NCBI GenBank assembly: GCA_002720855.1
Contig: PBIN01000005.1
Coordinates: forward strand, 124,001 to 188,000
Direction of reading: 5' to 3'
Source of the DNA: Rhodospirillaceae bacterium
GTDB lineage: Bacteria > Pseudomonadota > Alphaproteobacteria > MPNO01 > UBA2964
Length of the DNA: 64,000 bases
A program made the translations under genes and the position numbers. Of this stretch, positions 1 through 3,092 are shown piece by piece (position 1 is the first letter of the stretch; the number at the start of each line of letters is the position of its first letter). Under the pieces are notes generated by a model. It saw only the letters and a list, made by a program, of their open reading frames with translations, made no database searches and was not told where the DNA came from.

Positions 1-2304
1 GCAATGGCTATTTGCGTTTCTTATCGCACTGTCGCTGAACCCCATGGACGCCAAAAGATCGAATGCAGGATTTTCGAGCTCATTGGCTCCAACGCCTAAA
101 AGCTCGATGCATTGGTCCACGCCAAGAATCCAAGGGTTGAAGACTTGCGAAAGATCGATGGCATCGATCAGCGCATCTTCTACTTTGTCAATGAGGTCGT
201 CTGTAAAACCACGATGTTTGAGCGTTTCATGATTAATCGATGGTGCGTTCTTAAGTGTTCGATGGCCAAGAACGCTGTTGGCAAACGCTTCGGTCTGAAC
301 CTGCGAATACCCCAAAGCTTTCAGTCCTTGCCAAACACAGGGTGCTAAAGAGTTACGGTATTTGCCACTGGCATCGAGATCATGGCGGCAAAGGGAAGGG
401 ATCGGCAATAGACCGTGTGCGTTGTTCGCCAATATGGTGCTTGTATTAATTTCTGCCGTTACCAACGTCACCTGGGCATTTCTAAAGCCAGCGTCCATCC
501 CAAGACTTTCTGCCCTTTTCCACGCATCAACGGTCATTTCATGAAGGTTTGGCAACCCTCTGCGCGGATCAATCGAACGCGGATTCCAGCCCAAAAATTC
601 ATAACCACCATAATCTCCATCATTAGCGCGCCGGTGGTTGCGGATGACCCGCATCATAGATTCACGATTTTCGGTAAATGACGGAAATGTCCCGAGTTCA
701 GAAGCCATAGCCGCCGAATTGGCGTATGCGGTTGCTGTTACGAACGAGCAAATTGCGGCTGCAACTGCCCTCGCATCATCGCTATCATATGGCAATCCGT
801 ATGACATGATGATTTCGGCAATTCCCGTGATGGAAAGTCCCAGCGGCCTATAGTTCCAGACACGCTTCGCAGTGCGCGTCGTGTTCTGTGTGTTGCATAT
901 AAGGCTGATATCCATCGCAGTAGAAATCAGGGTTACCGCGTGACTGAGACCCTCCACGTCGAATTCGAATTCCGTGCCCCTAAATTTTGCGCAGTCGATG
1001 GCTGAACGGTGGCAAGCAGTGTCGTCCAGGAAAACAAAATCGCCGCCGCCGGCTGTCGCATTTATATCTCCATCGGCGGGGCAGGTATGCCAGCCTTCAA
1101 TTGTTGTCGAATACTGAATGCCGGTCTTGCGACCCGTCCACGCGCCGTAAGCTATCGAATCGAATATTTGATAATTTGCGTCGTCACCCTCGATCGCCGA
1201 ATCAATCGGACCGTCCTCCAATCGTACCATTAGAGATTTATTCGATAACGGCGATACATCTGCATGGGAATCGGGGGTGGGTCCCAGAATATCGGCTGCA
1301 CGCAATTCGGAAATTTGAGCGATAAGCTGCAGAGTACGTTCGATAATGTTCTCAGGAATACCAGCGCCCTTTGCGGATTTGATCGCCAGCGTAAGTGCAG
1401 CGCTGTTTGAGCCATCCTGTTTGGCGAAATTTTTTTCCTTGCTATATGAATCGATGATCGATTGTAGATGACGCGTTGCGATCTCGTATCCCATTGATTC
1501 CAATGCGTCTCGGGCATCCGAAGTGCCATCTTTCCACAAATCGTTGAGCGTCTCGGGATGTGTCCCGTCCAGTGTGACCCGAATGCCGGCTCTGGCATCT
1601 TTGAATGCAGATGTGTGTTCGCCATTCTGTTTGGGATAGGTGCCTATCGCGCACCCAAGCTTTGCAAGTGTCTCTTGTACTTCCGCTGTATTTTCAGGAG
1701 AAACAATCTGGGCCCCAGACGGCGCTACATCGTGTGTTTCGCTGCGACGGACCAGTCCAGTTCTATAATCAGTTACGAAACTATCGACCGGGGCCGTTGT
1801 AATTCCATATGCCCAAAAAGCCCCGTTTTTCTGCCATTGCGCGAGCTCTGGTGTGAATTTTCTGTGGCAGAGGAGCCATCGAATTTCGTCGTAAAAGGCG
1901 GAGGCATCCTCCTCAGAATCAAAATACCCTGCCTTCCATCCCAAATAAGTCCAGCCTCCTGAGATGCGGTCAATGGCAGCTCGCACGCTGATTTCACCGG
2001 AAAATTCTATTCCATTGGTGTCTGAGAGAGGGGTCGATTTATCGCCGGAGCGCCGCCACAGCCAGCGAGGAACGCTCTCCTCGCGAACGTACTCCAAATG
2101 GCGCGGTGATACTTCCGTTATAAGACAATTTTGGCAGAAGAATGCACAGGCTTCCGTTGACCATTCGGATGGAACTTCAACAAGGAATTTGTCGCTTTCT
2201 GCCTTCGACGAATATTGAGATTCAGTTTGTGGATCGAAAAACGCAAACGTCACGCCTTCATATGGCGTGCAACCAACCGTTGTATTTCGTCGGGCAATTC
2301 TCAC
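1..2304 (-). CDS. NrdJ-like protein (B12-dependent ribonucleotide reductase homologue), active site lost; 3' part outside window
   Basis: An open minus-strand frame of 768 codons runs off the left edge without a stop. The likely start is GTG at 2304: the first residues VRIARR resemble the NrdJ start MRIERR, and an in-frame TAG lies at 2322. Blocks typical of alphaproteobacterial class II reductase are present in order: WTYLGWKAGYFDSEEDA, HTCPADGDINA, FLDDTAC, ENRESMMRVIRNHRRA, GFRNAQVT, INHETLKHRGFT and NPAFDLLASMGF. The catalytic positions are changed. The thiyl-radical NPCSE segment reads AGGGD, the HACFIQ cysteine segment reads PSGAQIV, and the phosphate-binding APTGTIG reads TAEINTS. The cysteine in DDTAC remains. 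I infer a non-reducing paralogue, with the active nrdJ expected elsewhere. The frame is clean, so it is not an obvious decaying pseudogene. Homology is strong by eye; its role is unknown. Confidence 0.85.
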   Translation of the reverse strand, partial: MRIARRNTTVGCTPYEGVTFAFFDPQTESQYSSKAESDKFLVEVPSEWSTEACAFFCQNCLITEVSPRHLEYVREESVPRWLWRRSGDKSTPLSDTNGIEFSGEISVRAAIDRISGGWTYLGWKAGYFDSEEDASAFYDEIRWLLCHRKFTPELAQWQKNGAFWAYGITTAPVDSFVTDYRTGLVRRSETHDVAPSGAQIVSPENTAEVQETLAKLGCAIGTYPKQNGEHTSAFKDARAGIRVTLDGTHPETLNDLWKDGTSDARDALESMGYEIATRHLQSIIDSYSKEKNFAKQDGSNSAALTLAIKSAKGAGIPENIIERTLQLIAQISELRAADILGPTPDSHADVSPLSNKSLMVRLEDGPIDSAIEGDDANYQIFDSIAYGAWTGRKTGIQYSTTIEGWHTCPADGDINATAGGGDFVFLDDTACHRSAIDCAKFRGTEFEFDVEGLSHAVTLISTAMDISLICNTQNTTRTAKRVWNYRPLGLSITGIAEIIMSYGLPYDSDDARAVAAAICSFVTATAYANSAAMASELGTFPSFTENRESMMRVIRNHRRANDGDYGGYEFLGWNPRSIDPRRGLPNLHEMTVDAWKRAESLGMDAGFRNAQVTLVTAEINTSTILANNAHGLLPIPSLCRHDLDASGKYRNSLAPCVWQGLKALGYSQVQTEAFANSVLGHRTLKNAPSINHETLKHRGFTDDLIDKVEDALIDAIDLSQVFNPWILGVDQCIELLGVGANELENPAFDLLASMGFSDSAIRNANSHC

Positions 2305-2735
2305 TAGCGCCCCCGACCTCTATGCGGAACCGTCTTTTTATTTTTGATCCCGTCTGCGTCACTAATACCAAACAATCCGTTTGCAAGTGGATAGTTGGTC
2401 CCCCCGGTTGAATTTGAATCCGTTATTACTCTGAAATTCTTTAGCCAACTACACTACCGAGTAAAAATACGGACCCTAAATCTGGGGGGCGTACAGTATT
2501 TATTCCCAATATGTAGAAAAAGCAACAATATTCTGCGTTTTGACATATTTTTGGCACAATATTGAGTATTTTACTGAAATATTTGTTTGATTGCCCTAAA
2601 TGTTGATGTGACAGGACTGCGTGTAAAGCATTTAGGAAAAAGTACTTTGCCTGATGAACTTTACATGGTTAACAATGTGCTCACTTAGTTCGTAGATAGT
2701 TGCACGGAACCTAGGAAATTATGGTAGCCAGATAA
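2305..2735. other. Divergent intergenic region, AT-rich, no gene seen
   Basis: This 430-base stretch separates the leftward NrdJ-like gene from the rightward NDUFA12 gene. I see no open frame with a start and coding character. The part around 2500–2600 is markedly AT-rich and carries two copies of ACAATATT exactly 31 bases apart (see the NrdR-like entry). Promoters for both flanking genes must lie here, but I cannot place a convincing -35/-10 pair. A TTGACA at 2540 has no good -10 at the right distance. Confidence 0.6.
2523..2569. promoter_or_regulatory. Possible pair of NrdR boxes
   Basis: Two 16-base segments, 2523–2538 and 2554–2569, share the core ACAATATT and start 31 bases apart. NrdR, the ribonucleotide reductase repressor, binds two 16-base palindromes with centres about 31 bases apart (consensus near ACACwATATATwGTGT). 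By hand count the left segment matches 11 and the right 12 of 16 positions. The site lies about 220–265 bases upstream of the NrdJ-like start, which fits a ribonucleotide-reductase family gene. The core is short and AT-rich, so chance remains possible. Confidence 0.35.
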
Positions 2736-3092
2736 ATGACAATTGGGACGCGCCTATTCACATTGTTCAAAGGGCGGCATGTGGGCACCGATTCATTTGG
2801 AAACAGATATTTCGTTGAACGCAGCCCCGTTGAGGGCCGCCGCGCGAGACGGTGGGTCTTGTATAATGGTGCAGCAGAAGCCTCTCAGGTGCCGGCTGCT
2901 TGGCACGGCTGGTTACATGGTCGTACTGACGAATTGCCATCGGCTGAAACCGAAAAGAAATATGACTGGCAGAAAGAGCATCTCGCTAATCAAACCGGAT
3001 CGGAAAACGCGTACCGACCGCCGGGTCACGTTTTAAGCGGCGGGAAACGGGAAAAGGCAACCGGCGATTATGAACCTTGGCAACCGTCCTAA
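2736..3092 (+). CDS. NADH:ubiquinone oxidoreductase subunit NDUFA12 (B17.2) family
   Basis: A 118-residue protein of the NDUFA12/B17.2 family, an accessory or assembly subunit of respiratory complex I found in mitochondria and alphaproteobacteria. Family features seen are VGTDSFGNRYFVE near residues 16–28, RRWVLYNG, the VPAAWHGWLHGRTDELP segment and a C-terminal YEPWQPS. Length is normal for bacterial members. It starts at ATG 2736 and is followed 23 bases later by mlaD. The order NDUFA12–mlaD–DUF2155–aat is familiar from alphaproteobacteria, so these genes are probably co-transcribed. Confidence 0.93.
   Translation: MTIGTRLFTLFKGRHVGTDSFGNRYFVERSPVEGRRARRWVLYNGAAEASQVPAAWHGWLHGRTDELPSAETEKKYDWQKEHLANQTGSENAYRPPGHVLSGGKREKATGDYEPWQPS

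Follow-up and report, generated by a model that had tools for sequence, protein, structure and literature searches.

Can a gene for ribonucleotide reductase, a textbook essential enzyme, lose its active site and still be kept by selection? The question is raised by the first gene of the window, which is the whole stretch of 64,000 nucleotides that was analysed. A sequence-only reading had described the product as a full-length, NrdJ-like protein lacking the reductase active site, and as a maintained pseudoenzyme and dead paralogue. The gene and its nearest neighbour lie as follows.

1..2304, minus strand: inactivated nrdJ orthologue, the 5' 768 of 996 codons, with a GTG start at 2304 (by open reading frame, homology and synteny).
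2736..3092, plus strand: NDUFA12 gene, whose divergent position beside nrdJ is conserved across Alphaproteobacteria.

The gene exits the window after 768 codons, and the remainder reaches G000:C5:123314 (L003:6315). In the genome, the whole frame (L003:6315-9305, minus strand) encodes 996 amino acids. Intact NrdJ proteins have about 1205-1290, so "full-length" was wrong. The protein is related to class II NrdJ by the homology of its N-terminal domain and barrel and by its orthologous locus. Pfam recognizes Ribonuc_red_lgC (99 bits) and Ribonuc_red_2_N (57 bits). The best NCBIfam model for the full protein is PRK07562 (1222 aa), at 555 bits against a cut-off of 1737. The nearest solved structure by sequence, in a family-profile search, is Rhodobacter sphaeroides NrdJ (7b9p, 714 bits). 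This is also the best Foldseek match of an AlphaFold model of the orthologue from a relative, G004; the model was built with intact NrdJ rows, which favours an NrdJ fold. It is ordered over residues 1-819 and then disordered, with a tail pLDDT of about 27.

A single-protein search of named genomes gave no match. An alignment-based search gave one true relative, CALIBP010000106.1, which is the same contig as in G004, together with 79 NrdJ loci of 32-35% identity that are intact where examined.

The origin of the gene can be read from its surroundings. In many genomes of Rhodospirillales and Hyphomicrobiales type, intact nrdJ follows aroQ, accB, accC, aat, DUF2155, (a methyltransferase), MlaD and NDUFA12. 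RidA, FemAB, clpA and clpS often lie further along. The dead gene occupies exactly the place of intact nrdJ in this order, and this synteny with the ancestral locus rules out a paralogue of the true NrdJ. The gene is instead the ancestral nrdJ, inactivated in place. In a tree of accC, the host and its order mates form their own clade within Alphaproteobacteria, whose placement relative to the Rhodospirillales-type lineages is weakly resolved.

The genome does encode another reductase. An intact class II enzyme, NrdJ_Z, is found on a different contig (L004:5688-8027, minus strand; 589 bits to TIGR02504) and retains NPCGEQ and APTGTIS. A class I reductase is also present in most relatives; the search of the window's own genome turned up none. 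NrdJ_Z and the dead NrdJ belong to different NrdJ subfamilies and share 23% identity over one segment. Because of this, regulation of the true NrdJ, a role that had been suggested, is unlikely to work through mixed dimers.

The dead proteins were aligned with 40 intact NrdJ proteins to read the active-site motifs, which fall at these places.

1702..1722, minus strand: first active-site Cys segment, PHACFIQ to PSGAQIV (residues 195-201; alignment).
1240..1251, minus strand: place of the specificity loop, SGQN to PLSN (residues 352-355; alignment).
1039..1053, minus strand: place of the radical-cysteine motif, NPCSE to AGGGD (residues 418-422; alignment).
1012..1026, minus strand: DDTAC (residues 427-431), the sole active-site Cys kept, present in six of seven dead proteins.
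439..459, minus strand: place of the phosphate loop, APTGTIG to TAEINTS (residues 616-622; alignment).

The three replacements that had been noticed beforehand (AGGGD, PSGAQIV and TAEINTS) were read correctly. The catalytic cysteines are lost rather than displaced, and a frame or alignment error was ruled out: the flanks of the radical-cysteine motif and of the phosphate loop align gap-free. In wider context, the window copy has TAGGGD for SNPCSE and SGAQIV for PHACFIQ. VSGQNSNN, RRAAKM and the C-terminal RNGTCLKC zinc finger are also gone. HACFIQ, NPCSE and APTGTIG, on the other hand, are present in all 63 intact NrdJ frames examined.

The dead state is common to relatives in three genera. 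All seven dead proteins have lost the radical-cysteine motif with its N and E, and neither the phosphate loop APTGTIG nor the specificity loop SGQN survives in the family. The redox cysteine pair is incomplete: its first segment is lost or deleted (wholly absent in four relatives), and the second, DDTAC, is kept in six of the seven. The cysteine of FLDDTAC is presumably the third active-site Cys of the L. leichmannii scheme; C431 is not kept in G010. The C-terminal cysteines, which serve re-reduction in class II reductases (PMC5704485), are missing with the zinc-finger region.

The protein thus resembles the long alphaproteobacterial NrdJ (PRK07562; R. sphaeroides, PDB 7b9p/7b9q) in its N-terminal domain, barrel fold, locus and NrdR-type boxes, but it is without the radical-cysteine motif, the first active-site Cys, the specificity and phosphate loops, and the C-terminal IscU-like/zinc-finger part. 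Since the effector-loop and substrate-phosphate segments are gone, NrdJ-like nucleotide binding, another proposed role, is also unlikely. The view that the non-catalytic blocks are well kept is true for only some of them. Among columns invariant in intact NrdJ, the dead protein retains 25 of 34 at reference positions 550-650 and 15 of 23 at 100-150. Retention falls to 4 of 76 at 200-300, and beyond 950 none of 94 is kept. Across all seven dead proteins, 107 nearly invariant residues are identical, and derived residues such as R477, R481 and W483 are fixed in all of them.

A redundant nrdJ might simply be drifting and in the course of being lost, so that its open frame is a functionless remnant. 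Several facts fit such an ordinary decaying pseudogene. The gene is deleted at well-covered loci in G005 and G008 and is apparently absent from a partial, fragmentary locus in G006. In G002 an ISXO2-type element splits it: two copies, now 2.1 Mb apart on opposite strands, lie in an arrangement that an insertion and a subsequent large inversion would explain. In G001 and G007 a stop codon shortens the frame; several relatives are incomplete assemblies, in which single stops or gaps may be errors. The protein is 53-57% identical among relatives, against 75-94% for its neighbours. G015, from another family, has a shorter dead protein of 701 aa (L046:4617-6644), with much of the barrel deleted and the RNA described below kept.

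At the broken gene of G002, the ISXO2-type copies lie at both ends (L042:6160-8656 and L043:4589-7085). The element carries a DNA methyltransferase and a 207-aa protein.

The substitution pattern tells against decay. Five genomes of the genus have residues 1-880 open, and every gap there spans whole codons. Over this region (830 codons), omega is 0.127-0.165 in congener pairs with usable dS, and omega = 1 fits worse by 145-213 lnL units and is rejected; dS is saturated in pairs with the window's own copy, so the estimate for that copy rests on its relatives. The most constrained part is the following.

505..1104, minus strand: barrel core, residues 401-600, with omega of 0.05-0.09 in three congener pairs.

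Neighbouring genes have omega of 0.02-0.16, a range that includes the barrel core. The stops in G001 and G007 are confined to an unconstrained tail (residues 901-996), where omega is 0.63-0.90 at a low dS of 0.29-0.48. The shared derived residues and the retention of NrdR boxes also argue against decay, which we regard as quite improbable. The family is a pseudoenzyme in the sense that catalytic residues are lost throughout and selection is purifying, the latter shown for the window copy only indirectly because its dS is saturated. "Maintained" therefore holds for several species, in which neutrality is rejected; it does not mean indispensable. Because the frame has been deleted, broken or shortened in congeners, any benefit of the gene is dispensable. 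Taken together, the sequences describe the dead NrdJ as a maintained but dispensable pseudoenzyme in several species.

A strongly constrained barrel could also belong to a protein that is still an enzyme, either with a different chemistry or as an unconventional reductase. Constraint is strongest in the barrel core, and C431 and the DDT block are kept. However, the radical Cys, its N and E, the phosphate loop and the C-terminal cysteines are lost in all members, and G010 lacks C431 as well. This alternative is hardly credible.

The control region of the dead gene has three conserved features.

2554..2569, minus strand: NrdR-box-like site 1 (ATACTCAATATTGTGC), retained by each of the six congeners for which sequence upstream of the dead gene is available.
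2523..2538, minus strand: NrdR-box-like site 2 (ACGCAGAATATTGTTG), 31 bp from site 1.
2305..2515, minus strand: structured conserved 5' leader, with 39 predicted pairs, 8 of them changed on both sides among six congeners.

Paired NrdR-type boxes stand upstream of the dead gene in 6/6 congeners with upstream sequence. They likewise precede intact nrdJ in many genomes. There is also an nrdR gene. Ahead of NrdJ_Z, no NrdR boxes were found above chance. The leader fills the space between the boxes and the GTG start and is possibly an attenuator. In it, CCCCCCAGAUUUGGGG pairs with a later CAAAUCCAUCUGGGGGG block, and there is a covarying ACCAAAUCAUC hairpin.

At its other end, outside the window, the dead gene overlaps a second structured element.

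L003:6264-6408 = G000:C5:123263-123407, minus strand: conserved four-hairpin RNA overlapping the 3' end of the dead nrdJ.

The element consists of the last ~100 nt of the dead gene plus the terminator, and contains two anti-Shine-Dalgarno-like segments. By computation, its structure covaries: in an eleven-genome alignment, 18 of the 47 pairs show changes in both partners, compared with 6.1 in shuffled alignments (0/500) and 4-6 in slid controls. The loop of the second hairpin reads UCUUCCUC, or a close variant, in most genomes. The linker GUCUCCCUGA, just 5' of the terminator, is invariant or nearly so. With a covariance model, each of the nine genomes of the genus gives a single full match, directly before ridA, and so do G009, G010 and G015; G005 and G017 each have one extra weak match. 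The RNA persists without the gene, since G005, G006 and G008 carry it and are without the frame.

The same DNA could have been conserved for the C-terminal peptide SRRSASDTARS..SSPDAAVEQRHI. This was ruled out as a protein signal by the omega of the tail, by stops upstream of it in two species, and by the DNA being kept past the stop and in frame-less genomes. Conservation of the tail runs past the stop codon into the terminator and persists behind in-frame stops. Because tail omega is 0.6-0.9, the tail is conserved as RNA and not as protein.

Another explanation for the element is a structured terminator, a mere end of the nrdJ mRNA that insulates the downstream ridA. It does include a strong hairpin with a U-run, and ridA follows it closely in every genome. 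Yet three more hairpins, two of them strongly covarying, and the invariant linker would be needless for termination. The element also persists where nrdJ is gone, and related modules are found behind intact nrdJ genes far from ridA. We consider a terminator without regulatory function unlikely, though deserving of some weight.

Alternatively, the frame might serve merely to carry transcription into the RNA, the protein being irrelevant. Retention of the RNA in 9/9 congeners, not all of which keep the frame, agrees with this. The strong protein-level constraint lies far from the RNA, however, and those congeners manage to keep the RNA with no frame at all, which makes the carrier idea very improbable.

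Evidence for the source of the RNA can be found at intact nrdJ genes. The first hairpins align to the codons for the zinc finger (GNFTLVRNGTC) with which intact nrdJ ends, in a different frame from that read by the present dead gene. The ancestral 3' end, which encoded the Cys-rich C-terminal domain of class II enzymes (PMC5704485), is thus recognisable at DNA level, but this DNA has turned into RNA hairpins, and where it is still translated the frame is a different one. The best outside match of the 5' part of the RNA (E 6e-9) lies within an intact nrdJ. The 3' part aligns to a module of YCUCCCU and terminator behind intact nrdJ. YCUCCCU occurs within 300 nt in 16 of 85 intact-nrdJ 3'UTRs, compared with 1.9% of random windows, and mostly has a terminator behind it; in 3 of the 16 it is probably part of the terminator arms only.

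The closest known relatives in design are the alpha-R8 small RNAs (MmgR, SisA-D; RF00519 suhB), which combine a hairpin, an anti-Shine-Dalgarno 10-mer and a terminator and base-pair near ribosome-binding sites (PMC12559287). The nrdJ RNA likewise has a hairpin, a CUCCCU-containing anti-Shine-Dalgarno stretch and a Rho-independent terminator, with a core that reads GCGUCUCCCU instead of the exact 10-mer UUUCCUCCCU and is partly paired, where an alpha-R8 core is unpaired. It also differs by two extra coding-derived 5' hairpins and by lying at nrdJ, not at the FGase gene. Rfam mmgR/suhB (RF00519) matches exactly at the RNA site in several genomes, with 22-35 bits, below the gathering cut-off of 41; no Rfam family matches the 3' RNA at its curated threshold. 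Both the low score and the inexact 10-mer weigh against the sRNA reading, and the element may amount to no more than the nrdJ terminator region. Together with the modules at intact nrdJ and the published description of alpha-R8, the sub-threshold matches suggest an alpha-R8-like sRNA from the nrdJ 3'UTR. No earlier description of nrdJ together with a UTR-derived sRNA was found in the open literature, of which coverage was incomplete.

The loss of catalytic residues, the orthology by synteny and the purifying selection on the body are computed directly, as are the covariation of the RNA and its survival where the gene is gone, and the reading that best joins them has, in our estimate, about two chances in three of being right. 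It holds that an ancestral nrdJ was inactivated in place, that several species retain a selected non-catalytic protein, and that the 3' end carries an alpha-R8-like sRNA. The unrelated NrdJ_Z, with a class I enzyme in most relatives, would have taken over ribonucleotide reduction, after which the ancestral alphaproteobacterial nrdJ could be inactivated. In several species the protein would still be made and selected, as an NrdR-controlled, non-catalytic protein of NrdJ fold. It may act by binding a partner or ligand through its barrel instead of by chemistry. The 3' end of the gene would double as a separate sRNA transcript that stops at the nrdJ terminator. The anti-Shine-Dalgarno loop and the linker of this transcript would base-pair with target mRNAs at their ribosome-binding sites. 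Such an sRNA would have arisen in the nrdJ 3'UTR, extended into dead coding sequence and outlived the protein gene.

A bolder version, to which we give even odds, is that an RNA born in the nrdJ 3'UTR absorbed the dying coding end, is now the one part of the gene that is universally selected and outlives the gene, and that the residual frame, in species that have it, is the first bacterial class II pseudoenzyme shown to be selected and NrdR-controlled. A search of the open literature, again of incomplete coverage, for reductase pseudoenzymes, class II reductase pseudoenzymes or nrdJ pseudogenes found nothing relevant.

Reductase large subunits have been repurposed away from reduction elsewhere, as in herpesvirus R1 homologues such as M45. 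These share with the dead NrdJ the loss of catalysis and retention for another role. However, they are viral class I subunits with unrelated roles, whereas the dead nrdJ is a bacterial class II gene at its ancestral chromosomal locus. A dead reductase held at its original locus under constraint like that of a housekeeping gene, with its original repressor sites, offers a test case for a scaffold without chemistry. The loci also form a graded series, from intact gene with 3'UTR module, through dead gene with structured end, to RNA alone, which bears on the way in which the end of an mRNA can become a regulatory RNA.

In other Alphaproteobacteria, a CCUCCCUG-like motif and terminator follow intact nrdJ at L196:1501-1650, L198, L199, L015, L025, L026, L086, L088, L111, L114, L115 and L148. 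This module is a candidate for a widespread 3'UTR small RNA, and its occurrence suggests that an RNA behind nrdJ may be common in Alphaproteobacteria. Further mmgR/suhB-like loci, sub-threshold at up to 28 bits, are found in the host genome (G000: C15, C10, C9 and C3), and the host order may carry many siblings of alpha-R8 type.
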